From Candidatus Tityobacter terrigena (GTDB lineage Bacteria; Vulcanimicrobiota; Vulcanimicrobiia; Vulcanimicrobiales; Vulcanimicrobiaceae), in the NCBI GenBank assembly GCA_003156715.1, contig PMHO01000042.1:87900-151899 (forward strand): a stretch of DNA of 64,000 nucleotides, in the 5' to 3' direction. The position numbers and the translations under genes are program-made. Under the pieces are notes generated by a model. That model was not told the origin of the DNA. It saw nothing but the letters and a program-made list of their open reading frames with translations, and made no database searches. Of this stretch, positions 13,561 to 64,000 are shown in pieces. Positions within the stretch are counted from its first letter, which is position 1, and each line of letters opens with the position of its first letter.

Positions 13561-15351
13561 TTACGTACGGGTGCCGCGATGCGGCAAGAGCCCCGCGACC
13601 ACTTCTTTGATTGATTCCCTGATCACGCCGCCCTCGTCGGGATCACCTTTCGAAAGCGCCGAGAAGAGGTTGTGGGCCTGCTGAAGAGTGATATGCGGCG
13701 GCAGCTGCGTGATGTTCGGGTCAACGACCGCATCGAAGATCACCGGGCGATCGGAGGCCAGAGCACGGTCCCACGCTGGCCCGATCTCTTCGTCCCGTTC
13801 GACCCGGATGCCGTTCAGGCCGATTTGATTGGCGTACTCGGCGTAATTAAAATGCGGCAAATCCTGGGAAGCTTCGTACTTCGGGTTGCCGCTCTCGATG
13901 CGCATCTCCCAGGTGACTTGGTTGAGATCCGAGTTGTTCATTACCAGAAAAATGAGGCGCGGATCCTCCCAGCGTTTCCAATATTTCGCAACGGTGAGCA
14001 TTTCGGCACTGCCGTTCATCTGCATCGCACCGTCGCCGGTGCACGCGATAACCGCGCGCTTGGGAAACGCAAACTTCGCCGCGATAGCGTACGGAACCGC
14101 AGAGCCCATCGTCGCCAGGCTGCCGGAGAGCGAAGATTTCATTCCGCGCCGCATATGGATGTTGCGGGCGAACCAGTTTGTCGCGGTGCCTGCATCGCCG
14201 GTCAGAATCGCGTTATCGGGCAGTCGCTCGTTCAATTCCCAAAAAATGAGCTGCGGGTTAATCTGCGCGCCCTTGACGTGGCAGCGCGCTTCTTCATCGG
14301 AGTACCAGCTCTTTAGATTCTTGGCGATCTTCTCCCGCCACGCGTTATCCATCTTCGGAAGTAGCAAGGGAAGCAGCGCCGATAGCGTTGTTTGGCTGTC
14401 GCCAATCAAATTAACTTCGGTCGGAAAGCGCAACCCGACATTACGCGCATCGATGTCGATCTGCACGCCGCGAGCCTGCCCTTCTTTGGGCAGGAACTCC
14501 GAATACGGATAGCAGGTGCCGACCATCAGCAGCGTGTCGCACTCGTTCATCATGTCGGCGCTCGGGCGCGTTCCCAACAATCCGAGGGTGCCCGTAACGT
14601 ACGGCAGATCGTCCGGAACCACGTATTTACCGAGCAAGGCCTTCGCGATTCCCGCACCCAAGCGGTCAGCAACCGCGAGTACTTCATCGGTCGCGTTCGC
14701 CGCGCCCTGCCCGACCATCACTGCCACGCGCTTCCCGTTATTGAGAACCTCGGCCGCGCGCTGAAGATCGTCCTGCCTCGGCACGACGACCGGCGCCGAG
14801 TACCCGACACTGCTACGCGTCATGTTGTGAGTACGAGGGGGGCGTGGAACGGCGTCTTCTTCTTGCACGTCTTTCGGTACGATCACGCAGGTGACGGCTC
14901 GAAACGCGGCCGCCGTGCGAACCGCCCGATCGACGACGTGACGCATCGCCGCGGGGTTCGAAACCGTGTAGACGTATTCGGTTACGTCCTGCAATAGGAC
15001 CTGAAGATCGACTTCCTGCTGATACGAACTTCCGAGCGCACTCGTGGCAGCCTGACCGACGACCGCTACGACGGGCGTATGATCCATCTTCGCGTCGTAA
15101 AGACCGTTGAGCAGATGGACGGCGCCCGGACCGGAAGTTGCCAGACAGAGGCCGACCTCACCCGTGAATTTGGCATGGGCGCACGCCATGAACGCAGCCA
15201 TCTCTTCGTGACGAACCTGAATAAACTCAAGTTTATCGCCGATTCGGCCGAAGGCACCCATGATTCCATTGATGCCGTCGCCGGGGTAACCATAGACCCG
15301 CCGAAAGCCCCAGTCGACAAGCCGCTCAAGTAAGAAGTCACTAGTGTTCAC
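13561..15351 (-). CDS. Thiamine-diphosphate enzyme, pyruvate oxidase/acetolactate synthase-like
   Basis: A 596-residue TPP enzyme with the usual three domains: N-terminal PYR domain with the activating Glu (VRHEEMAAFMACAHAKFTG), central Rossmann-like domain (GKRVAVMVGQGA), and C-terminal PP domain with the ThDP motif GDGAMQMNGSAEM ending in NN. The length and GYPGDGINGIM start fit the POX/ubiquinone pyruvate oxidase group rather than biosynthetic IlvB. I start at the GTG at 15351 (VNTSDFLLERL), with GGCGGAG 10-12 bases upstream; the frame is open to 15495 but upstream residues look non-coding. First gene of the nine-gene operon; would decarboxylate pyruvate to acetate or acetyl-P. Confidence 0.85.
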   Translation of the reverse strand: MNTSDFLLERLVDWGFRRVYGYPGDGINGIMGAFGRIGDKLEFIQVRHEEMAAFMACAHAKFTGEVGLCLATSGPGAVHLLNGLYDAKMDHTPVVAVVGQAATSALGSSYQQEVDLQVLLQDVTEYVYTVSNPAAMRHVVDRAVRTAAAFRAVTCVIVPKDVQEEDAVPRPPRTHNMTRSSVGYSAPVVVPRQDDLQRAAEVLNNGKRVAVMVGQGAANATDEVLAVADRLGAGIAKALLGKYVVPDDLPYVTGTLGLLGTRPSADMMNECDTLLMVGTCYPYSEFLPKEGQARGVQIDIDARNVGLRFPTEVNLIGDSQTTLSALLPLLLPKMDNAWREKIAKNLKSWYSDEEARCHVKGAQINPQLIFWELNERLPDNAILTGDAGTATNWFARNIHMRRGMKSSLSGSLATMGSAVPYAIAAKFAFPKRAVIACTGDGAMQMNGSAEMLTVAKYWKRWEDPRLIFLVMNNSDLNQVTWEMRIESGNPKYEASQDLPHFNYAEYANQIGLNGIRVERDEEIGPAWDRALASDRPVIFDAVVDPNITQLPPHITLQQAHNLFSALSKGDPDEGGVIRESIKEVVAGLLPHRGTRT

Positions 15352-15731
15352 GTCGCAGCCACTCCGCCTTTGGGTGATGAGATCGCCCTTATTGAGCCGG
15401 AGAAGTATTGCTGAGCGGTAGGTTGCTCGCCTTGCTTCGTTCGCCCCTAGGTGTTCTCCCCTCTTCTTTTCACAGAAAGCGGGAAGAATAAACACGCTGT
15501 GACGATTTGACCTAGGCTCCCATGACGTCTGCTTTCTTAAGCGGGCAAGCTGAGTCTAAACACAAACCTGATTGAAGCTCACTCGACTAAAGATCTAGCG
15601 TTCTCCAATCTCTTCGGCAGAGGTAACGTCAGCGCCACGACGCAGGGTCGATCGAAAGAGCCATGCCGCGATTACAAACTGAGTTGCCCCTTGCGGGATG
15701 GACATCGACGCTATGCTCGCTGCGTGCATTA
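15352..15731. other. Intergenic region with likely promoter of the nine-gene operon
   Basis: About 380 bases with no gene I can support. The leftward operon must start here. An inverted pair, CCTAGGT at 15447 and ACCTAGG at 15510, spans an AT-richer stretch (TTATTC and TTTCTGTG on the minus strand) and could be part of its control region, but I see no clear -35/-10 pair. Confidence 0.3.
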
Positions 15732-17130: not shown

Positions 17131-19458
17131 ATGAAGGACGCAACCACTTTGCGCTCGGATTGGCGGCGCATTCTGAGTATCGACCGCGGTTCGTCATCGC
17201 TCAGAATCGCAGTATACGAAATGGGACCGGCGTGCGAGCATCTTCTCCTCGAAGGCGGGATCGAACGACTCGAAGTGCCCAACGTCGCGCTGCGAATTCA
17301 AGACTATCGCGCCTCGGTGCTCCACGAAACATGCAGGCCGCTCGGCGACTCTACGCCGATTGCCGCGCTGCTTGCGTTCCTGGCGGAGGCCGGTGTCCAC
17401 ATCAACGGTGTCGGGCACCGGCTCGTCTACGGTGGTTCGACGCATGAAGCACCGGCACGGGTCAGCGCCGCATTACTGGGGGATCTGGCGAGACTCGTCC
17501 CGTTCGACCCGCTCCATTTACCTGCTGCGCTCGCCGCCATTCGCGAGATCGAGACATCACGGCCCGAACTGGCGCAAGTCGTGTGCTTTGACACGGCCTT
17601 CCATCGCCGCATGCCCCCGATCGCGCAAGGCTTACCGCTGCCGCGTGAGCTATGGTCGGAAGGGGTGCGCCGGTACGGTTTCCACGGTCTCTCGTACGAA
17701 TCAATCGTCCGCGCGCTGGGTAGCGCGGGAACGCGCGGGATGATGATCGTGGCGCACCTCGGCAGCGGCGCGAGCCTTGCCGCTATGCGGGACGGCAGAC
17801 CGGTGGACACCACGATGGGATTCAGCGCGCTCGGCGGCCTCATGATGGGGACGCGGCCGGGCGATCTCGATCCCGGTGCGCTGCTCTATCTCTTGCGCAC
17901 AGGGCGATATACGCTCGCGGACCTGGACGACGTGCTGTGGCATCACAGCGGTCTACTCGGTGTGTCGCAAATCAGCCCGGACATGCAGACGCTGCTGGAA
18001 CGGCGTGCCGCCGACACGCCGGCCGCTGAGGCCATTGACCTGTTCGTCTACCAGGCAAGAAAGCACATCGGCGCACTCTTCGCCGCACTTGGAGGACTGG
18101 ACACCTTCGTCTTTACCGGGGGCATCGGTGAAAATTCCGCTACGATACGTTCCGAGATCGCTGCGGGCCTGGCGCACCTTGGAATCGAGCTCGATCCAAT
18201 GCGCAACGCCGCCGGCACAGGGGTCATTTCGGCCGAGGGAGCGCGTGTCGTCGTCTACGTCATCGCAGCGAGGGAGAATCTCATGGTGGCCCGCCACACG
18301 TACACCACCCTCTTCGGACCCTCGGATCACGACGGTTCCGCGTCGTCGACCGACGGGGTGATCTATCCGTGGCGACTCGACCCCAAGCTCACCCCTGCCC
18401 TTTGGGGCGGTGATGAACTGGTGCGCACGTACGGCAAGGACGGCGACCTCAATGGCAAGCTAGGCGAGTCGTGGGAATGTTGGGACGCCGACACCGTTGC
18501 CAACGGTCCGCTCAAGGGTTCAAGCCTCGCGCTATTGCGCGAGCGGCTGGGGGCGCGGTTTCTCGGCGACCTCGATCCGACGCGGCTCTTCCCGACGCTT
18601 ACGAAGATCATAACCGCACACGATTGGCTGTCGGTACAAGTACATCCGAACGATGCCTATGCCCAGCGCACCGAACATCAGCCTTTCGGCAAAACTGAAT
18701 GCTGGTACGTCTTGGCCGCCGAGCGCGATGCCGAACTGGTCGTCGGGTGGCTCCGCGACACATCGCGCGCGGAATACGAACGCCGAGTCGGCGACGGAAC
18801 GCTGGCGGAGATCCTTCGCAAGGTGCCGGTGAAAGCCGGCGACACCGTGTACGTACCGGCCGGATTGGTTCACGCGATCGGTCCTGGCGTCGCCGTCTTC
18901 GAAACGCAACAGGCCAGCGATCTGACCTATCGTATGTTCGATTGGAACCGCATGGGACTCGACGGAAAGCCGCGCGAGTTGCAAGTTCAGAAGGCCGCCG
19001 ACGTCCTCGACTATCGTGCCGGCGGCGAAACGACGCTCGTGCAGATCGCCTACCGCTGCGAAGGCCTGCAGCGGAATGCTTTGATCGCCGATCCGCGGTT
19101 CACGGTCGAGCGCATCGTCGCGACCATCGAATCTGGTGAGATTGCGACCAACGGCCGTCCACTGATCCTAATGTCGCTGGAGCATCCGATGGAAGTCGCT
19201 TGTGGCGGCACGTCGACCGCACTGCAGAAGTATCAGACGGTCCTCATCCCGGCAGCGGCCGGCTCCTGCACGGTTCGCAGCGGCGAAACGAGCGCGCCGT
19301 TCCTTTTGGTAACGCCGGAACGGTCGCCGGATCAACTTCCGATCCGGTTGCTCGCCGCCGGCATCCCTCAGCCGCAAATCGCTGCGTTTACCGAGCAGTT
19401 CTCCCAGCGCACTCTCGTCGCATCAGAAACAAGTGAGGGCGGACGATTGTTCACGTAG
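17131..19458 (+). CDS. ackA-manA: Acetate kinase-mannose-6-phosphate isomerase fusion protein
   Basis: One 775-residue protein with two complete enzymes. Residues ~12-393 are acetate kinase: GSSSLRIAVY, VGHRLVYGG (substrate Arg), CFDTAFH (catalytic Asp), RRYGFHGLSY, HLGSGAS, MGFSALGGLMMGTRPGDLDPG and FTGGIGEN. The usual Asn before GSSSL is Asp (SIDRGSSSL). After a short Ser/Asp-rich linker, residues ~407-775 are a short Bacillus-type ManA: YPWRLDPKLTPALWGG, zinc ligands in SVQVHPND and GKTECWYVL, and VPAGLVHAIGPG. ManA makes fructose-6-phosphate; acetate kinase turns acetyl-phosphate plus ADP into acetate plus ATP. Phosphoketolase, encoded 9 kb away, joins exactly these two steps. Confidence 0.92.
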   Translation: MKDATTLRSDWRRILSIDRGSSSLRIAVYEMGPACEHLLLEGGIERLEVPNVALRIQDYRASVLHETCRPLGDSTPIAALLAFLAEAGVHINGVGHRLVYGGSTHEAPARVSAALLGDLARLVPFDPLHLPAALAAIREIETSRPELAQVVCFDTAFHRRMPPIAQGLPLPRELWSEGVRRYGFHGLSYESIVRALGSAGTRGMMIVAHLGSGASLAAMRDGRPVDTTMGFSALGGLMMGTRPGDLDPGALLYLLRTGRYTLADLDDVLWHHSGLLGVSQISPDMQTLLERRAADTPAAEAIDLFVYQARKHIGALFAALGGLDTFVFTGGIGENSATIRSEIAAGLAHLGIELDPMRNAAGTGVISAEGARVVVYVIAARENLMVARHTYTTLFGPSDHDGSASSTDGVIYPWRLDPKLTPALWGGDELVRTYGKDGDLNGKLGESWECWDADTVANGPLKGSSLALLRERLGARFLGDLDPTRLFPTLTKIITAHDWLSVQVHPNDAYAQRTEHQPFGKTECWYVLAAERDAELVVGWLRDTSRAEYERRVGDGTLAEILRKVPVKAGDTVYVPAGLVHAIGPGVAVFETQQASDLTYRMFDWNRMGLDGKPRELQVQKAADVLDYRAGGETTLVQIAYRCEGLQRNALIADPRFTVERIVATIESGEIATNGRPLILMSLEHPMEVACGGTSTALQKYQTVLIPAAAGSCTVRSGETSAPFLLVTPERSPDQLPIRLLAAGIPQPQIAAFTEQFSQRTLVASETSEGGRLFT

Positions 19459-25180: not shown

Positions 25181-25936
25181 TCACGTCGGGCTGTCTTCCG
25201 AGCACGCGATGATGGCCTCAATGACGCGCTTACTTTCATCCGGATCGCGGACTTGGATGCAAATCGCGCCGGTTCTCCGCGCCGGCTCGTCGTTTCCGCC
25301 CGGGAACAAGGCGTCACCGACGTAGATCATGTCCCCGGTCGCAATGCCCAGGACGTCCCGCAGCTTTCCTATCCCATACGCCTTGTCGATTCCGGGAAGC
25401 GTGACATCAATCGAGGTCGCTCCTCCCAATGCAACGGAAAAGTCCGGCAGCGATACGCCAAGCAGTGCCTTGATCTTCTTCCGCTTCGCGAAGTCCGGAT
25501 CCCATTTTTTCTTTTCGTCCAATGGCGCTTCTTGGCCCAGTGCGGAGTAGGTGATTTGGCTCTCTCGATCCTCAATCAGCTCTCCCCACGTCTTTTTTGG
25601 TCGAAAGCCGGTGGCATCGAGTGCCGCGTGCAGCGCAGCGGTGATCTTTTGCTTCTGTTCGTCCGAAAGGTTTTCCGCGTAGAGCAGCCTCCAATCGTCC
25701 GTGTAACGATAGAACCGCGTTCCGCAGGTCGGCAAGAGGGACAGCTTGTCAAAATGGTCATGCTGTGGAAGGCGGGCGAGCACTTGCGTTTGGAACTGCG
25801 GAAAGGCGCCGCCCGAGATGATCGCCACCCGCACCACCGCGAACAGAGCGGTAAGCAGCGTCGACATTTCCGGATCGATGGCCGATTTGCTTAACGCCAG
25901 CGTGCCATCGAGGTCGAACACGACGAGCGACTTCAT
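25181..25936 (-). CDS. HAD-IIB family sugar phosphatase/phosphomutase-like protein
   Basis: A 251-residue haloacid dehalogenase of subclass IIB. FDLDGTLALSKS gives nucleophile D8 and acid D10; SGG forms motif II; the cap domain lies between ~85 and 190; KAYGIGKL carries the motif III Lys; GDALFPGGND is motif IV. Relatives include sucrose-phosphate phosphatase, mannosyl-3-phosphoglycerate phosphatase and eukaryotic-type phosphomannomutase. Given GH130 and ManA nearby, action on a mannose phosphate is a reasonable guess. Start is the ATG at 25936, four bases after the phosphoketolase stop; the open frame upstream overlaps that gene. Confidence 0.82.
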   Translation of the reverse strand: MKSLVVFDLDGTLALSKSAIDPEMSTLLTALFAVVRVAIISGGAFPQFQTQVLARLPQHDHFDKLSLLPTCGTRFYRYTDDWRLLYAENLSDEQKQKITAALHAALDATGFRPKKTWGELIEDRESQITYSALGQEAPLDEKKKWDPDFAKRKKIKALLGVSLPDFSVALGGATSIDVTLPGIDKAYGIGKLRDVLGIATGDMIYVGDALFPGGNDEPARRTGAICIQVRDPDESKRVIEAIIACSEDSPT

Positions 25937-25940
25937 TTGC

Positions 25941-28529
25941 CTAGCTATCGGTGAACAGGTTTGCGCGCGGATGCCCCTTAGCCGGCGGCGCGGGAGCGGT
26001 CGGCTCGCTGAAGTCCGCCGTCCAGCGCCAATTTTGGATCTCCGGCATATCTTGCAAATGTTCTCGAATATATCCGTGGTGCTCAAAGAGCTTTCGGTTG
26101 AACATGTCGATGGCGTCACGGGCCTGCGAGCGCAGCCGCGGCAAGTGTTTGAGTGCGTCGATCGCAAGGTGATAACGGCTCATCTCATTCAACACAAGCA
26201 TGTCGAACGGCGTGGTGGTCGTGCCGCGATCCATGTAGCCGCGCACGTGAAAGCGGCCTTCATTGGAGCGCCCGTGGACCATGGTGTGGATGAGCCAACG
26301 ATTGTTGTGAAACGCGAACACGACCGGCGCGTCCTTAGTAAAGAGCGCATCAAAGGACATAGTGTCCATTCCATGCGGATGATCGTCCGGCATCATCAGC
26401 GTGGTCAAATCCACGACGTTGACGACCCGCACCTTGATGCCGGGGACGTACTTCTGTAGCAGCCAAGATGTCGCGCATATTTCGATCGTCGGTATGTCGC
26501 CCGCGCAAGCGAGCACGACGTCCGGTTCTTCGCCGCCGTCGTTGGTTGCAAACTTCCATGTCGATGCGCCACGAGAGCAATGCTCGAGTGCCTCGTCCAT
26601 GTTCAACCACTGCAGCTGCGGCTGCTTGCCGCAGGTGATGATGTTGACATAGTTGCGGCTGCGCAGACAGTGGTCGAAGACGCTCAGGAGGCAATTACCA
26701 TCCGGCGGATAGTAAACTCGGATGGTTGCGCTCCGGCGCGCGAGTGCGTTATCGACGAACCCCGTCGCTTGGTGGCTGAAACCATTGTGATCCTGACGCC
26801 AGACGTGACTCGTCAGGAAGACGTTCATGGATGCGAGTGGTTTACGCCAGGCAAACTCTCCGCATTGCTCGAGCCATTTGGCGTGCTGGGTAAGCATAGA
26901 GTCGACGACCTGCGCGAAGGCTTCGTAGGAGGACCACATGCCATGCCGCCCGGTTAGCAGGTACCCCTCGAGCCATCCCTGGCAGCAATGCTCGCTGAGC
27001 ACTTCCATGACGCGCCCCTCCGGCCCAAGGTCGTGATCGATTGAAACCGTCTCGGCCATGAAGGTGCGTTTGGTCGTCTCGAAGACGGAACTCAAACGAT
27101 TGGAGTCTGTCTCATCGGGAGAAAAGATGCGAAAATTCGTCGGATTGAGTTTGAAGACGTCCCGGAAAAAGGACCCGAGCTTGCGTGGGGCTTCCGCGAC
27201 GACTTGCCCAGGAGCGGGAATCTCAAGCGCATAGCCGGTAAAATCCGGCAGGTCGAGCGTGGTCAGCAACCGGCCACCGTTGACGTGCGGGCTTCCGCCC
27301 ATTCGGCGATTGCCGCACGGCGCAAGTTCCGCTAATTCCGGAATGAATGCGCCGCGCTCATCGAAAAGTTCCTCCGGCTTGTAACTCCTCATCCACGTTT
27401 CGAGAATCTTGAGGTGGGCCGGATTCTCCTTGACCGTTGCGATCGGGACCTGATGCGCACGGAACGTGCCTTCCAGCGGGATTCCATCGACCTCTTTCGG
27501 ACAGGTCCACCCCTTGGACGTACGCAGCACGATCATTGGCCATACCGGCTGCTTTTTGAAGCCATTCGTGCGGGCATCATGCTGAATCGTGCGAATCTCG
27601 GCATAGCACGCGTCAAGGGTCTTGGCGAGCAGTTGATGCACGACGAGCGGATCATAACCCTCGACGAAATAGGGGTGGTAGCCGCGTCCGACGTAGAGCG
27701 CTTTCAAATCGGCGTCGCTCGTCCGGCTCTGCACGGTTGGGGCGGAGATCTTGTATCCGTTGAGATGCAAGATCGGAAGCACGGCGCCGTCTCGAACCGG
27801 ATTGAGGAAGTTGACGGACTTCCAACTTCCCTCGAGCGGGCATGTCTCGGACTCGCCGTCACCGATCACGCAAGCAACGATGAGATCCGGATTGTCGAAC
27901 GCGGCCCCGAAGGCGTGAATTAGTGAATAACCGAGCTCCCCGCCCTCATGCATCGAATTCGGGACGTGCGGTCCGCAGTGGCTCGGCACGCCCCCGGGAG
28001 TCGAAAATTGCCGAAAGAGAAGCCGCAAGCCATTCTCATCCGGCGTGACTTCCGGGTGAACCTCGGTATACGAGCCTTCGAGATAAGAGCCGGCATTGAG
28101 CGCTGGACCACCATGCCCCGGACCAGAGATGTAAATGATGTTCGCCTGGTGTTCTTTGATCAGGCGGTTGAGATGAATGTAGATGAGGTTTTGTCCCGGC
28201 GTGGTTCCCCAGTGCCCGAGCAGCGTCGGTTTGATCTGCTCCGCTTTGAGGGGTTCCCGCAATAGCGGGTTCTCGAAAAGGTAAATCTGGCCGACGCTCA
28301 GATAGTTCGCGGCGCGCCAGTAACGATGCATCTTATCGAGCATCTCCGGCGTCAGCGGACCCAATGGCATCGGCGCTGTTTCTTGTCGTTCGCCATCCGC
28401 CGCGATTGCGGTCGACAACGTTGCATCAAAGAGGAAGGCCGGCGGTTTGGCAGCCTGCTCGAAAACCCGTTCCGGTGCTGTTGGGCCATTGCCATCTCGG
28501 ACAGTCGATACCAGATTAGTCGTTCGCAT
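25941..28529 (-). CDS. xfp: Phosphoketolase (xylulose-5-P/fructose-6-P)
   Basis: An 862-residue TPP enzyme, full length for the family (~790-830 plus a ~40-residue N-terminal extension). Splits fructose-6-P or xylulose-5-P with phosphate into acetyl-phosphate and erythrose-4-P or glyceraldehyde-3-P. Family landmarks: [58 protein letters not shown], the ThDP motif [18 protein letters not shown] with HLNGYKIS, and a C-terminal [10 protein letters not shown]. Part of the ppk2-GH130-ATPase-xfp-HAD operon, 33 bases after the ATPase stop; AAGGGA precedes the ATG. Confidence 0.95.
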
Positions 28530-28562: not shown

Positions 28563-31412
28563 TCACGTTGCTCCCGCGACGTGCGGCTGACGATCGACTG
28601 GCTTAGCCGCACGGGACGACGTTCTAGCTCGTGATGGGTCCAAGATCCGATAAGCCAGCAGCTTCACGGGATCGGTCAACAGCGCGCAAACGATCGCATA
28701 GCCCCAGACGAAGGCCGCTAACTGCCATCCGATGGGCGTCATAATGTGCAGCCCGTACACCGCCATGAGCGTCGCCAGCATTTGCGTCCCGAGCACCGCA
28801 AACAGGAGGATATTCGCCGGACGCGTGGACCACCACGGACCTCGCGTACGCGTGAGAAAGATCGTCAAATGCCCAGCCACGGAGAGTTTGAGGTACATAA
28901 GCGTTTGCACGTGCGATCGATCGAGATGAAACACACGCTCGCCCAGATAAAACAGGCCAAACGCCGTTACGACCCCGACGACGCCGAGCACCGTGGAGAC
29001 GCCGAGTACCTGACGCATGTCCCAGGCCTCCGGCATATTTCGGTATCGGACTTCGTCATAGGCGATTGACAGGATTGCGCCGTCGTTGAGCAACGCGAGC
29101 ATCACGATCATCACCGCTGTCACCGGATAGAAATTGAAGACCAGGATCGCGAAGACCATAAACAACAGGACGCGCAGCGTCTCGGCAATGCGATACATCG
29201 CATAGCTGTTCATCCGCTTGAATATACGACGGCTCTCCTTGATTGCGTCGATGATGACCGACAGCCCGGGTGCAAGCAGCACGATAGAGGCAGCCGCGCG
29301 CGCGGCATCGGTCGCACCCGACACGGCGACGCCGCAATCAGCCTTCTTCAGCGCAGGAGCGTCGTTCACACCATCGCCGGTCATGCCGACGATGTGCCCC
29401 GACTTCTGCAGCACGTCGATGATGTGGAATTTGTCTGCCGGAAATACCTGCGCGAAACCGTCTGCTTGTTCGATCGACGCATCTGCTCTCGCCACGTCGC
29501 TTGGCTTGGTGCCGTGCAAACCGCTTGCGTCGAGGATGTTCGTTCCGAGGCCCAGCACCCGTGACATCTCTCGCGCAATGGCGATCGCATCGCCGGTTAC
29601 CATTTTGATGTGTACGCCCATCTGCCTGGCGTTCGCGATCGTCGCTTTGGCTTGTGGACGCGGTGGATCGGACATCGGGAGGACGCCGACGAACTTCCAT
29701 GTGCCATCCCCATCGGCGCGTGCTACGCCGAGCGAACGGAAGCCGCGTTCGGCAAAGCCATTCACCGCTTTGTCGACGTCGGGCTTGACGATTGCGGCGT
29801 CGGTCGCCATCTCCAGGATAACCTGCGGCGCTCCCTTTGCCACCTGGAATTGTTTGCCGTCCAAACCGGTGACCGTTGCTACCGTGCGCTTGTGCACCGG
29901 GTCGAACGGTTGAAAATGGAGAACGTGGTAGTCATTGAGTGCCGCGCCCTTCGCACCGGCGAGTACGGCCAGATCGATCGGGTCCTTGTCTTCCGCGCGC
30001 GAAGCGAGTGCGGCGTCGAGAATGACTTCGTCGCCCGTTATCCCGTGTACGCAGAACGGGTCGCCTAACGTTAGTTTGTTCTCGGTCAGCGTTCCGGTCT
30101 TATCCGAGCACAATACGTCGACGCCCGCCAATTCTTCGATCGCTGCCAAACGCGTCACGATTGCTTGTTTTTTCGCGAGCAGCTTAGCGCCGACGGCCAT
30201 GGTCACGGAGAGCACCGTTGGCATCGCCACGGGGATGGCGGCGACCAGCAGCACCAAGGCGAATTCCAACGTGCTGAGGAGCGGGTCGTGACGGAAGAGC
30301 GCAACGACGACGATCAAGAACACGAGGGCGGTCGCGAGGACGATGAGGTAGTCGCCGATCTTCAGGACAGCCCGCTGGAAATGGCTGACGGTCTGGGCCT
30401 CTTGAACCAACTGAGCCGTCTTGCCGAAGTACGTGTGAGAGCCGGTGGCATACACCACTGCGCTCGCCTCACCTCGTCGCATGATCGAGCCGGAAAACAC
30501 CGCATCGCCGGTTTTGCGGGTCGCGGGCAACGACTCGCCGGTCAAAGCCGACTGATCAACTTCGATTGGGTCGGCGCCGGCCAACAGACGGACATCCGCC
30601 GGCACGATATCGCCCAACCGCATCCGAACGACGTCGCCCGGTACCAGATCGGATGCATTCGGCTCGCCCCACTTGCCGTCCCGACGAACGCGGGCCTTCA
30701 CTGCCAATCTAGATCTTAGCGCGGCGATGGCATTGCCGGCTTGATGCTCTTCCCAAAATCCAACAACGGCGTTCGAACACAACAGCAGCAAGATGACACC
30801 GAAATCGAGCCAGTGACGAACGATGCCTGAGAGAATGACCGCCGCCTCGATCATCCAGGGAATCGGCCCCCAGAAATAGGTCAGGAATTTCAGGAGCGGA
30901 TTCTCGGTCTTCTCCGCAATGGCGTTTGGACCGTACTGCGTCAAGCGTTTTGCCGCCTGTACCGCCGTCAGACCGTCCTTCGTCGACCCTAACTTTGCGA
31001 ACAGGTCCGGCATAGAAAGGCTCTTCAGGTCATTCTCGTCACCGTGCGCGGACTTGCCACCAACGCCGGGCTTCGCGTCGGCGGCGTGCTTCGCATTGTC
31101 CGCGGGTTTCGCATCGGCCTCAGCCGCGGGCTTCGCATCGGCACCCTCAGGAGGATCCGCAGCCGCAGTGGGCTCCACAATATCCGCGGTTTTCGCATCG
31201 GCCCCGGACTTAGGCTGCTCCCCCGCCCCTGCGGCCGGAGCGCCATTGGAATCAGCCGCTGGTTGGGATTCTGTCTCAGGCTTGTAGTCAATCTCGGACT
31301 CGATCTTCGAGACGATCGTCGAGACGGTGGTGGACTCAGGCGCGCGCCTGGTCTGGTTCGCGGTTCTCGTTTCCGTTTTAGTCTCGGTCCGCGATTTGTG
31401 CTTACTTGTCAT
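28563..31412 (-). CDS. P3A-type plasma-membrane H+-ATPase with Ala/Lys/Asp repeat extension
   Basis: A 949-residue P-type ATPase. Core from ~residue 128: actuator TGES at 291-294, helix 4 VAAIPVAMPTV (395-399 PVAMP), phosphorylation site CSDKTGTLT (D437), hinge TGDGVNDAPALKKADCGVAVSGATDAARAAA, ten helices in all. The VAMP sequence in helix 4 and GVAVSGATDAARAAA are typical of proton pumps of the fungal/plant/archaeal P3A group. The first ~128 residues form a soluble tail with repeats of ADAKPA/ADAKPG, a region not seen in standard members. ATG at 31412 overlaps the GH130 stop by 11 bases. Confidence 0.92.
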   Translation of the reverse strand: MTSKHKSRTETKTETRTANQTRRAPESTTVSTIVSKIESEIDYKPETESQPAADSNGAPAAGAGEQPKSGADAKTADIVEPTAAADPPEGADAKPAAEADAKPADNAKHAADAKPGVGGKSAHGDENDLKSLSMPDLFAKLGSTKDGLTAVQAAKRLTQYGPNAIAEKTENPLLKFLTYFWGPIPWMIEAAVILSGIVRHWLDFGVILLLLCSNAVVGFWEEHQAGNAIAALRSRLAVKARVRRDGKWGEPNASDLVPGDVVRMRLGDIVPADVRLLAGADPIEVDQSALTGESLPATRKTGDAVFSGSIMRRGEASAVVYATGSHTYFGKTAQLVQEAQTVSHFQRAVLKIGDYLIVLATALVFLIVVVALFRHDPLLSTLEFALVLLVAAIPVAMPTVLSVTMAVGAKLLAKKQAIVTRLAAIEELAGVDVLCSDKTGTLTENKLTLGDPFCVHGITGDEVILDAALASRAEDKDPIDLAVLAGAKGAALNDYHVLHFQPFDPVHKRTVATVTGLDGKQFQVAKGAPQVILEMATDAAIVKPDVDKAVNGFAERGFRSLGVARADGDGTWKFVGVLPMSDPPRPQAKATIANARQMGVHIKMVTGDAIAIAREMSRVLGLGTNILDASGLHGTKPSDVARADASIEQADGFAQVFPADKFHIIDVLQKSGHIVGMTGDGVNDAPALKKADCGVAVSGATDAARAAASIVLLAPGLSVIIDAIKESRRIFKRMNSYAMYRIAETLRVLLFMVFAILVFNFYPVTAVMIVMLALLNDGAILSIAYDEVRYRNMPEAWDMRQVLGVSTVLGVVGVVTAFGLFYLGERVFHLDRSHVQTLMYLKLSVAGHLTIFLTRTRGPWWSTRPANILLFAVLGTQMLATLMAVYGLHIMTPIGWQLAAFVWGYAIVCALLTDPVKLLAYRILDPSRARTSSRAAKPVDRQPHVAGAT

Positions 31413-32493
31413 TCGAATTCACCGTAGCCACCATCGCCTCGTTCGGCAACGTGATGCGTGCCGCCGCGATGACGTGATCTGCGGCACCGTAGTAGACGTC
31501 GAGCTTGCCAGCCGCACGCATTTCGGTGGCCGAGGGAAAGACGACATCGCTCACCAGGCCGTTACGCTCGTACTCGGCCTCCGGCTGGAGGATGGGCGCC
31601 GGGGTTCTGTAGAGAACGCGCGACGGCCGCTCGCCATCGAGGATCGCGACACCCATGCAATACCGGGAGTGTCCCTCCGGAGCACCGACGCCGTGATAAG
31701 GCAAAACCCACCCGTACGAAAGCCGTACCGGCGGCGAGCCGGGTCCAACCTTCTTCGCTTCCCACGCCTGCTCGGGCGCCATGACTGGTTCGTGTCGGCG
31801 CACCGACGTCAGCTTTGCAATGTCAGCGAGCACAACTTCAACCGGGACGTACGAGATCCAAATGTTCTCTTGTGTTTCCTCGCCACCGGGCGGCGCGGTC
31901 ACTGCCATTCCCGTATTGTTGCGGTGAAAGTGTAGGCGCGTTGTAGGCCGGTGCAAAATGCCGAACGACGGAACGCCCTGCGGATCGGACACGACCTCAG
32001 AAAACAGCGCCGCATCTTTGTTACCGCACTTATTGAGGTCGCGCCCGTCGGGCATTATTTCGTACTGCAAAACGCCGAGACGATGCCAGGTTCGAAGGTC
32101 CTCCGAGACCGCGATCGCGACACGCGGCTCGTACGGGACGAACGCCGTGTACGTCATGACGTAGCGCTTCAGCAGCGGCACGTAGACCACGCGCGGATCT
32201 TCGACGCCGCCGCCGCCTGGGCTGACTTCGTACGATTCGTGCGGCTCGAGCGCCACGCCGAGTCGCTCGACGCCCACCGGCGTCTCTCCGTCGAAGAGCA
32301 CCCGTACGTGCCCGATCCGCGAGTAGTTCCCCTCGGCGATGAGGCGCGGGAACAAGTGCATCGCTCCATCGTGAGCGCGAACGCCGCCAGGATTGAGGAC
32401 GCCCCACGCCTCGTGCGGCTCACCGACCTGGGGGCTCATGATCACGCCAAGGCGCTTAACTGAAAACTTGAGACCCGCGACTAGCACCGGCAT
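31402..32493 (-). CDS. GH130 family beta-mannoside phosphorylase-like protein
   Basis: A 363-residue five-bladed beta-propeller of family GH130 (inverting phosphorylases that cut beta-1,2- or beta-1,4-mannosides to mannose-1-phosphate). Seen: NPGGVRAHDGAMHLFPRL, GGVEDPRVVYVPLLKRYVMTYTAF, NKDAALF, RPTTRLHFH, and YGAADHVIAAARI near the end, which matches the closing blade. The product would feed the ManA half of the fusion protein via a phosphomannomutase. The ATG at 32493 starts one base after the ppk2 stop; a second in-frame ATG at 32439 (MSPQVGEPHE) is possible. Confidence 0.85.
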   Translation of the reverse strand: MPVLVAGLKFSVKRLGVIMSPQVGEPHEAWGVLNPGGVRAHDGAMHLFPRLIAEGNYSRIGHVRVLFDGETPVGVERLGVALEPHESYEVSPGGGGVEDPRVVYVPLLKRYVMTYTAFVPYEPRVAIAVSEDLRTWHRLGVLQYEIMPDGRDLNKCGNKDAALFSEVVSDPQGVPSFGILHRPTTRLHFHRNNTGMAVTAPPGGEETQENIWISYVPVEVVLADIAKLTSVRRHEPVMAPEQAWEAKKVGPGSPPVRLSYGWVLPYHGVGAPEGHSRYCMGVAILDGERPSRVLYRTPAPILQPEAEYERNGLVSDVVFPSATEMRAAGKLDVYYGAADHVIAAARITLPNEAMVATVNSNDK

Positions 32494-32494
32494 C

Positions 32495-33397
32495 TTAGTG
32501 GGCAGCGAGAGCGGAGAGCTTCCGGCTCCCGACGAGTTTCTCGCGCTCCGTCGTCAGTGCCGATCGCTGCTGAAGCGTGACGTTTGGATACGTCAGCCCG
32601 AGTGCTCTCATCCGCGCCACGATAATGTCGGCGACGGCCACGCGCGTGAACCACTTATGGTCAGCAGGGACGATGTACCAGGGCGCCGACTCCGTGCTCG
32701 TGTGCGAGAGCAATTTCTCGTAGACTTCTCGGTAGCTTTGCCAATACGTGCGTTCGTGGGCGTCCGACGCTGAGAACTTCCAGTTTTTCTCCGGAATATC
32801 GATGCGCTCGAGGAACCGCTTCGCCTGCTCCTCCTTTGAAAGGTGGAGAAAGAACTTTAGGATCACCGTACCGTTGCGGGTTAAGTGCCGCTCAAAGGAC
32901 ACAATGTCTTCGTACCGATCCTTCCACAGTGAGGCACCTGATGGATGCGGCGGAAGGTCCTCGTGCTCAAGCAGCGCCCCGTGGACCCTCACGACCGCGA
33001 GTTCTTCGTAGTACGAGCGATTAAAGATGGCGATCCGCCCGCGTTCAGGCGCGACTTTCGCACATCGCCAGAGATAGTCGTGCGACAATTCCTGCGTGGA
33101 GGGCTGCTTGAACGGATAGACGTCTACGCCTTGCGGACTGACGCCCGACATGACGTGTCGGATCGCGCCGTCTTTGCCCGCCGCATCCATGCCCTGAAAA
33201 ATGATGAGCAGCGCGTAGCGCTGTGCCGCATAAAAGGTGTCCTGAAGCGCCGACAGATGCTTAATATCACCGCCGAGTTTCTCCTTGGCATCGCGCTTGT
33301 CTTTGAAGTCAGCCGTAAAACTGCAATCAAAATCCGCTAGGTCGATGTCGTGGCCCGGCCTGGCCAAGAAAGCTGCATGATCGATCGTGTGTTGCAT
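32495..33397 (-). CDS. ppk2: Polyphosphate kinase 2
   Basis: A 300-residue PPK2-family enzyme that moves phosphate between polyphosphate and nucleotides. Walker A GMDAAGKDG at residues 69-77; HVMSGVSPQGVDVYPFKQP; Walker B region RIAIFNRSYYEELAVVRVH; lid DIVSFERHLTRNGTVILKFFLHLSKEEQAKR; and the C-terminal APWYIVPADHKWFTRVAVADIIV. Family members of this size with one domain often make ADP/ATP from AMP/ADP, but class cannot be fixed by eye. First gene of the leftward energy operon; AGGCGGT lies nine bases before the ATG. Confidence 0.93.
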   Translation of the reverse strand: MQHTIDHAAFLARPGHDIDLADFDCSFTADFKDKRDAKEKLGGDIKHLSALQDTFYAAQRYALLIIFQGMDAAGKDGAIRHVMSGVSPQGVDVYPFKQPSTQELSHDYLWRCAKVAPERGRIAIFNRSYYEELAVVRVHGALLEHEDLPPHPSGASLWKDRYEDIVSFERHLTRNGTVILKFFLHLSKEEQAKRFLERIDIPEKNWKFSASDAHERTYWQSYREVYEKLLSHTSTESAPWYIVPADHKWFTRVAVADIIVARMRALGLTYPNVTLQQRSALTTEREKLVGSRKLSALAAH

Positions 33398-61280: not shown

Positions 61281-64000
61281 CTACCCGCAGGTCGGGTTCT
61301 CGTGTGGGAAATCGTGGTAGGTGCCGTGCAACATTGCCTTGCCCTCGCTCGTTCTTTCCTTTTCAGGAACGTCGAGATCTATGGGATCGGTTGCCGCATC
61401 TCGACGTGGGCGCCGGCCGGCACGAATGTTGCACGTTAGCGCCTTCGCCTCATGGATCGAGCAGTTTGGATCCATCGACAGTGGAATCAAATCTCCCGAC
61501 GTGTCGCCGTGCGCAAAGCCGAGTCTTCCGAAGTTGTAGGGCACGCCTATCTGATGCACGCGCTCACCACTTCCAATGCTTAGAAGCTTAATGCGGCCGG
61601 TCACGAGCGCGCGGACCTCGATCTCGCCGACCGCCGTGCTTATGGTCGCCCAGTCGCCGTTCCGAATGCGCTTTTCCGCCGCCAGAACCGGATCGATTTC
61701 GCAGAATGCCGCCGGCTGTAATTCGGCAAGCCAAGGAATGTGCTTCGTCATTCCACCGGAGTACTCCGTAATGCGGTACGTCGTCAAGACATACGGATAC
61801 TCCGGATTGACGGCACCATTGTAGGGGTTATCGCGCCGTTTCCATTGACGCAGCACTGGATTATGCTGCTGCTTGTAAAGCAGGTTAGGAGTGACCGATG
61901 CCAGAGGCTCATAATGGACCGGTATAGGACCGTCCTGCAATTCCTCATTCACGAAGAGCGCACCGCGGCCGTCGATCTGCATCATGAATGGATCGGCGCC
62001 CGAATGCGCCTCGATGCCGCCGGCGTTTGGGTCTGCCGGCGTGTTCGGGGCCTTTTCTATGGGGAAGTCAGGTACGTCGGCCCCAGTCCAACGACCCGAA
62101 GTTGCATCCCACCAGATGTATTTCTTTCGCTCGCTCCAGGGGTTGCCGTCGGGGTCAGCCGAGGCGCGGTTGTACATAAGCCGCCTGTTTGCGGGCCACG
62201 CAAAACCCCAGCCGAGGGAGACGCCGCTACCGCCGGTGCGGCTCCGGGCGAGGTTCGTATGCTTATCGGGGCAAACGCCGGAATAGATCCAACCGCCTGC
62301 CGCCGTGCTGCCATCGTCTGCGAGTTCGGTGAAGCCCTTGACCTGATCTCCGGTTGCGGTGTAATAACCGTTGATTTCTTGCATGATCTTGTTGACCGAT
62401 GGCTCGCCACGCTCGCGCTCCCGATCGTCCTCGTGCTCGTAGTCCCACGTCATGTTGAGGATCGGGCGATCCTTCGCATCGGCCGAGCCGGCATACAGCG
62501 CCTTTAGCTTTTTGCCCAGCTGATATAGAAACCATGCGTCGCTCTTGCTCGCGCCCTGCGGCTCGAGCGCCTTGTCGTGAAACTGCAGCATACGGTTTGT
62601 GTTAACCATTACGCCGTCTTTTTCAAGGACGGTCGCCGCGGGAATGAAAAACACTTCGGTACCGACGGTGGACGGATCGACACCTTCGCGGTTCCAGAAA
62701 GAGGCAGTTTCGGTTTCGAACGAATCGATGCTGACCATCCACTCTAGGCGCTCCATCGCCGCGCGAGCAAGCTCGGCGTTTTGCACGGATGACGCGGGGT
62801 TTTGGCCAATGACGAAGTAACCCTTAACGGCGCCGTCCTTCATTGCAAACATGGTCGGTAGCTCGGAATGATCGCCGCTGATTTGCGGCAGGTAATCAAA
62901 GCAGAAGTCGTTCTCTTTTGTCGCAGCATCCCCGTAGAACGCCTTGAGCAGTGAAACAACGTACTTCGGGGTGTTCACCCACCAACCGGTTCGCTTGGTG
63001 TGGTTCTTCAGGTAACCGGCCAGTGTCTGCTCGTGGCGCAGGGCGGACGGCATCGGCAAGTAGCCCGGGAGCAGATCGTAGAGTGTTGCAATATCGGTCG
63101 CGCCTTGAATGTTGGCATGGCCTCGCAGAGCCATTATGCCGCCGCCAGGACGGCCGACGTTACCGAGCAGTAATTGAAGAATGGCGGCGGTTCGAATGTA
63201 CTGTACGCCGGTATTGTGCTGCGTCCAACCCAGGGCATAAGCAAATGCCGTCGTGCGCTCGCGCCCGCTATTTTCGGCGAGTGCGCGGCAGACCTCGAGA
63301 AACTTCTCGCGTGGCGCCCCACAGATGCTTTCGACCATTTCCGGCGTGTAGCGCGAGAAGTGGCGCTTTAGTATCTGAAAGACGCATCGCGGATGCTGCA
63401 AGGTCGGATCGCTCTTGATGGAGTTCCCTTCACGCTCGAACTTCCACGTGCGCCTGTCGTACATCACAACACTCGGAAGCGAGTCAGATACACGCGGCGG
63501 CTCATCGAGACCAGAGAAAAGCCCGTCGAGGTCTTCGGTATCCTGGAATTTGTCAGTCAGGATATGGCTCGCGTTGGTGTAAGCGCAGACGTACTCCCGA
63601 AAATAACGCTCATTTTGGAGCACCCAGTTGATAACGCCGCCGAGAAAGGCGATGTCGGTGCCACTGCGGATCGGTACGTAAAGGTCGGCTAGCGCGGACG
63701 TGCGCGTGTAGCGCGGGTCGACGTGGATGATCTTGGAACCGCGCTCCTTCGCTTGCATGACGAAGCGGAAACCAACCGGATGGGCCTCGGCGAAGTTCGA
63801 ACCTTCGATTAGTATGCAGTCAGCGTTCGGCAAGTCTTGGAGGGAATTGGTTGCGCCCCCGCGTCCGAATGAGGTGCCTAGACCAGGCACCGTGGCACTA
63901 TGTCATATTCGTGCCTGATTTTCGATCGAAACCACGCCGAGCGAGTGCATCAACTTACCCAGCAGGTAATTTTCTTCGATGGCAAACGTGGCGCCCCCAA
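61281..64000 (-). CDS. Selenocysteine formate dehydrogenase, catalytic subunit (5' part outside window)
   Basis: At least 905 codons of an FdnG-like molybdopterin enzyme; it continues past the right edge. Upstream of the GTG at 63890 that a gene caller would choose, the same frame reads LLGKLMHSLGVVSIENQARI, then TGA at 63905-63903, then HSATVPGLGTSFGRGGATNS. In FdnG the matching segment is NQARV-Sec-H-GPTV...FGRGAMTN, so the TGA encodes selenocysteine, the molybdenum ligand. Later parts match FdnG throughout: NFAEAHPVGFRF, RYTRTSALADLYVPIRSGTDIAFL, YALGWTQHNTGVQYIRT, ALRGHANIQGATD, FNRRLMYNRASADPDGNPW. Oxidises formate to CO2. Confidence 0.93.
63873..63891 (-). promoter_or_regulatory. Bacterial SECIS hairpin
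   Basis: On the minus strand, 11 bases after the TGA, GGTGCCT and AGGCACC form a perfect 7-bp stem around the loop GGTCT. The E. coli fdhF/fdnG SECIS uses the same apical GGUCU for SelB. Position and loop make recoding of the TGA very likely. SelA, SelB, SelD and tRNA-Sec are not in this window. Confidence 0.85.

Follow-up and report, generated by a model that had tools for sequence, protein, structure and literature searches.

An in-frame fusion of acetate kinase and mannose-6-phosphate isomerase in one Eremiobacterota genome, close to a candidate mannoside-phosphoketolase gene cluster

Precedent exists in other bacteria for a route that leads from β-mannosides via mannose-1-phosphate and mannose-6-phosphate to fructose-6-phosphate without ATP cost, and which relies on a GH130 enzyme, a phosphomannomutase and mannose-6-phosphate isomerase (ManA) (PMC4264767). 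Candidate genes for the same three steps, which would likewise yield fructose-6-phosphate without ATP cost, are encoded in the 64,000-nucleotide stretch of DNA analysed here (‘the window’), which differs in that its mutase is of the HAD type and encoded after phosphoketolase, and in that fructose-6-phosphate is proposed to feed a phosphoketolase route and not glycolysis. GH130 and phosphoketolase are seldom named together in the open-access literature that we searched. A further point of reference is provided by operons of the genes for phosphoketolase (xfp) and acetate kinase (ackA): the acetate kinase of the window groups with enzymes encoded beside xfp in many phyla, but an ABC cassette lies between its gene and xfp, and the gene is fused to manA. 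The substrate of phosphoketolase, fructose-6-phosphate, and its product, acetyl-phosphate, would link the two halves of this fusion.

The source assembly, which represents an uncultured bacterium from peatland, is a 3.9 Mb draft of 66 contigs (93% complete), and its nearest named relatives are the palsa and bog assemblies of Candidatus Eremiobacterota. At 17131-19458 on the plus strand, the window contains a single ATG-to-stop frame of 775 amino acids devoid of internal stops. Residues 1-398 (17131-18324) constitute an acetate kinase domain, assigned from PF00871, TIGR00016 and the catalytic residues, while residues 408-775 plus the stop codon (18352-19458) encode a class I ManA domain, assigned from its match to B. 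subtilis ManA, PF20511, the site residues and the tree. The two are joined by a linker of ∼9 residues (about 399-407; 18325-18351) that lacks a stop codon and was delimited from the stop and start positions in unfused relatives. The Pfam matches fall at residues 14-388 (Acetate_kinase, E = 3.9e-90) and 456-513 (PMI type I, E = 9.9e-5), and among PDB entries the N-terminal half retrieves acetate kinases (E down to 5e-66) and the C-terminal half B. subtilis ManA (1qwr, E = 3.4e-39). An Rfam search of the window gave no match.

Both halves align over their full length with unfused proteins, that is, with the AckA of palsa_1485 (L036, on the same contig as L207; 72% identical) and the ManA of genome G013 (L116; 74% identical). 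The former terminates with ...TLFESSTVEAAGRYRQ followed by a stop codon and the latter begins MSDPDLYPW..., whereas the fusion runs ...TLFGPSDHDGSASSTDGVIYPW..., so that both enzymes are complete and only the intervening stop and start are missing. This bears out the sequence-only reading that one frame carries complete AckA and ManA, and a missed stop or a frameshift is rejected as the cause of the fusion, given that the frame is clean and that unfused relatives align along the whole of both halves. Comparison with the nearest unfused relatives yields dN/dS values of 0.187 (AckA half) and 0.165 (ManA half), with 0.19-0.24 for pairs of unfused genes, which indicates that both halves are under purifying selection, even if much of the divergence behind these values may predate the fusion. 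That the contig merges an ackA and a manA from different places or strains appears very unlikely. The assembly is a fragmented draft, probably derived from a metagenome, and the fusion was seen once; however, the junction is in frame and falls exactly between complete domains, GC3 is 0.731 in both halves and the sequence on both sides is typical of the family. Moreover, two breakpoints around ManA would probably be needed, because ackA of bog_1492 (L040) likewise adjoins the ABC cassette found here after ManA.

The AckA half passes the cut-offs of TIGR00016 (296.7 versus 293.4 bits) and PF00871 (302.8 versus 22), and is placed in the tree as the sister of palsa_1485 AckA (support 99/90) without a long branch. 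It has R97, H129, D154, H185, R242 and E382, corresponding to R91, H123, D148, H180, R241 and E384 of the Methanosarcina thermophila enzyme, and these six catalytic residues are invariant across 89 aligned sequences. Two phosphate-site positions deviate: Asn7 (PHOSPHATE1) is Asp in the fusion and in 6 of the 89 relatives, all of them Eremiobacterota, and Asn211 (PHOSPHATE2) is Ser in the fusion and in 23 of the 89. Since unfused natural relatives share both replacements, we do not count them as excluding membership in the AckA family, although activity may be altered. In the M. thermophila enzyme, N211S reduces the specific activity ∼200-fold, from 883 units to 4.4 (PMC4390882); natural Ser211 acetate kinases may therefore be slower, or else compensated. 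Asp does occupy the position before the GSSSL motif that is usually Asn, as had been pointed out from the sequence, but this is a trait of the lineage and not a special adaptation of the fusion, as it also occurs in unfused Eremiobacterota ackA genes that adjoin xfp (L127, L133, L134). The source genome contains a second, separate ackA-xfp operon on contig C32. A third, partial acetate kinase match lies at a contig end of the same genome (L003, G000:C47:59913-60113).

For the ManA half, the score just exceeds the cut-off of PF20511 (22.9 versus 22) and stays below that of TIGR00218 (88.7 versus 116.2). When aligned with B. subtilis ManA, it keeps Q503, H505, E523 and H581, which we take to be the zinc ligands as in class I enzymes, and R601, presumably the catalytic arginine. 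In the tree it is the sister of unfused G013 ManA (support 100/96), again without a long branch. The source genome also encodes a second, separate and more distant ManA on contig C40.

The fused gene is located about 6 kb from the phosphoketolase operon, which lies on the minus strand at 25-33 kb and is separated from it by a HlyD/ABC-transporter cassette; owing to this distance and the opposite strand, the fused gene is not a member of the xfp operon. Phosphoketolase itself (25941-28529, minus strand; PF09364, PF03894, PF09363) comprises all three domains, XFP_N, XFP and XFP_C, with 547, 270 and 276 bits, respectively. Only 4 nt downstream of the end of xfp starts a gene (25181-25936, minus strand) for a HAD protein of the phosphomannomutase/α-phosphoglucomutase type. 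It aligns over its whole length with the HAD-type α-phosphoglucomutase of Lactococcus lactis (4bnd, E = 1.8e-44, residues 3-249), shares a DxDGTL motif with it and is homologous to eukaryotic phosphomannomutases as well (PMM2, 4.8e-12; PF03332, 1.7e-7). It had initially been read as a sugar phosphatase, a designation that we reject in favor of a mutase in view of these homologies. Its substrate is a prediction; HAD-type mutases can act on both sugars, as exemplified by Plasmodium HAD5 (PMC8808168). Such a protein would convert mannose-1-phosphate to mannose-6-phosphate and thereby bridge GH130 and ManA, which otherwise lack a connecting step.

The GH130 family protein (31402-32493, minus strand; PF04041, 6.9e-38) has the β-1,2-mannobiose phosphorylase 7fip as its best PDB match (3.4e-26) and remains below the NCBIfam equivalog cut-off (best β-1,2-mannobiose phosphorylase model, 134 versus 450 bits); it belongs to the GH130 family and is probably a β-mannoside phosphorylase. 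It is preceded on the same strand by polyphosphate kinase 2 (PPK2; 32495-33397, minus strand; PF03976, 8.6e-66; TIGR03709, 366 bits). A plasma-membrane proton-efflux P-type ATPase (28563-31412, minus strand; TIGR01647, 1024.8 bits, cut-off 615.5) is placed between xfp and GH130, and P-type ATPase matches occur near xfp-ackA in several other phyla, too. Our literature searches revealed no xfp-PPK2-ATPase operon.

From the observed sequences, gene order and conservation we infer all activities, substrates and the direction of flux, as well as any benefit of the fusion, and arrive at the following reading, to which we assign a probability of about 0.5: the gene would have arisen recently, by a stop-loss event that joined two enzymes, each working independently and both serving a mannoside-phosphoketolase module. 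In one lineage of Eremiobacterota, manA would have come to lie directly behind ackA, whose stop codon was then lost, and each half would most likely still fold and work independently. Together with the genes at 25-33 kb, both halves would probably form one module, in which GH130 phosphorolyses a β-mannoside to mannose-1-phosphate, the HAD mutase produces mannose-6-phosphate, ManA interconverts mannose-6-phosphate and fructose-6-phosphate, phosphoketolase cleaves the latter into acetyl-phosphate and erythrose-4-phosphate, and AckA uses acetyl-phosphate to form acetate and ATP. Through PPK2 and the proton ATPase, this ATP would be linked to polyphosphate and the proton gradient. Joining AckA and ManA would yield equal amounts of both, and channelling is not needed for this reading. 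Among the points against it is that the source genome has a second ackA-xfp operon and a second ManA, so that the fused protein may be dispensable.

A farther-reaching proposal is tentative, and we consider it somewhat doubtful in its entirety: Eremiobacterota and some Acidobacteria would possess a dedicated route in which β-mannosides are phosphorolysed and passed through phosphoketolase, giving ATP and acetate with no redox steps and no outlay for a hexokinase, and in one lineage the enzymes that make fructose-6-phosphate and use acetyl-phosphate would have been fused so that their output is matched or coupled. If the route exists, it would let peatland bacteria obtain ATP from mannosides with neither an ATP investment for activation nor a need for redox partners, which would suit acidic, oxygen-poor soil.

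Gene order in other genomes bears on the route itself. In palsa_1485, a GH130-PPK2-AckA run adjoins ATPase-XFP. An acidobacterial locus (L049, 9950-18991) carries ackA, xfp, fba, gpm, ppk2, manA, HAD and GH130 on one strand, where fba is a class I aldolase gene, gpm is a gene of the histidine-phosphatase family (phosphoglycerate-mutase-like) and xfp reads as two pieces, possibly because of a frameshift. This operon, a candidate for a compact mannoside-to-acetate pathway, holds the same enzyme set as the window, except that its ManA is encoded by a separate gene and belongs to a distant ManA branch (34% identical). In a second acidobacterium (L227), manA-HAD-GH130 are found together without xfp; within Eremiobacterota, GH130-HAD pairs occur in L188 and L199 and an XFP-HAD pair in L189. 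Of the 60 class genomes having both genes, 7 (G000, G061, G018, G093, G108, G118 and G017) have xfp no more than about 5 kb away from GH130, with 0.46 expected (Poisson P = 6e-7, an optimistic value, as genomes were taken as independent though some share a genus). Most Eremiobacterota have their HAD and GH130 genes away from xfp, and no intact ManA was seen beside GH130 or xfp in the other class genomes whose surroundings were read. The route from GH130 via the HAD mutase, ManA and phosphoketolase to AckA is chemically sensible and supported, as a prediction, by gene order in two phyla.

It may alternatively be considered that the two halves belong to other pathways, with ManA providing mannose-6-phosphate for the synthesis of GDP-mannose and AckA using acetyl-phosphate that does not stem from phosphoketolase. 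The reaction of ManA is reversible, and a possible alternative source of acetyl-phosphate, a pyruvate-oxidase-like thiamine-diphosphate enzyme (13561-15495, minus strand; PRK08273, 979 bits and over the cut-off; pyruvate oxidase PRK08611, 477 bits and below the cut-off), is encoded nearer to the fused gene than xfp is. In Thermoanaerobacter, moreover, GH130 genes are grouped with genes for GDP-mannose salvage (PMC4264767). We nonetheless deem this explanation improbable: the separate ManA on C40 is available for biosynthesis, 50 of 80 fetched relatives have xfp in the vicinity of ackA, and the HAD mutase gene follows xfp after 4 nt.

The fusion is rare. A match spanning both halves was found in 1 of 117 genomes of the class, the source genome, and the closest relatives have ackA and manA as separate genes. 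Beyond the class, genome contigs were searched with the whole fusion and 80 loci were kept; since all of them matched via the AckA half, AckA-ManA fusions may exist elsewhere. Literature searches yielded no AckA-ManA fusion. In genus g24 and in G076 long frames surround ManA, as one does AckA in G035; these were inspected as further candidates and rejected, their extensions resembling chance or antisense frames when judged by eye.

Another ManA fusion is present in the same family. Genome G011 (L131, G011:C12, 7446-10163, minus strand) encodes an in-frame PabBC-ManA fusion (Chorismate_bind, Aminotran_4 and PMI) that is independent of the one described here; as in the latter, ManA is joined by its N terminus to the product of the upstream gene, but the partner is PabBC of folate biosynthesis. 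Read-through fusion of ManA therefore recurs without metabolic logic. In several genera of the family, including G013, pabBC lies immediately upstream of manA, and in G013 the sister of the fused ManA starts 19 nt downstream of pabBC in the same frame. Hence, ManA can fuse to whichever gene precedes it, a single AckA-ManA fusion argues only weakly for coupling, and the PabBC-ManA case cautions against inferring function from one gene fusion.

These observations lend weight to an accidental read-through, in which manA landed behind ackA, the two activities are unlinked and the gene is kept as each half is useful. Further support comes from the lack of the PabBC partner in the source genome assembly and from G028 (L118, G028:C192, 5689-5832, minus strand), where a 147-bp remnant of ManA, decayed by frameshift, lies ∼200 bp ahead of an unfused ackA, suggesting that ManA copies move in this region. 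We regard such an accident as a serious contender, albeit one that we would not favor: the partner of ManA is an enzyme tied to it also in the shared operon of Acidobacteria, and constraint persists on both halves. The mannoside-to-acetate route for ATP generation put forward in the sequence-only reading gains support from the homology of the HAD mutase and the acidobacterial operons, while the idea that its end enzymes are joined in a meaningful way is not supported, given a fusion found in 1 of 117 genomes, the PabBC-ManA fusion of G011 and an xfp encoded separately on the other strand. A further idea is a channelling complex in which the fusion docks phosphoketolase between its halves. Established enzymology does place the two halves on either side of the phosphoketolase reaction, yet occurrence in one genome only, an xfp outside the fused gene and a linker of just ∼9 residues render such a complex highly improbable; a fusion as such points only weakly to channelling. 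The AckA-ManA fusion itself links two central enzymes that are rarely joined.

Finally, a formate dehydrogenase α gene on the minus strand of the window, which covers 61281-63890 and extends further, has a TGA in frame at 63903-63905 (context ENQARI-U-HSATV) that is probably a selenocysteine codon.
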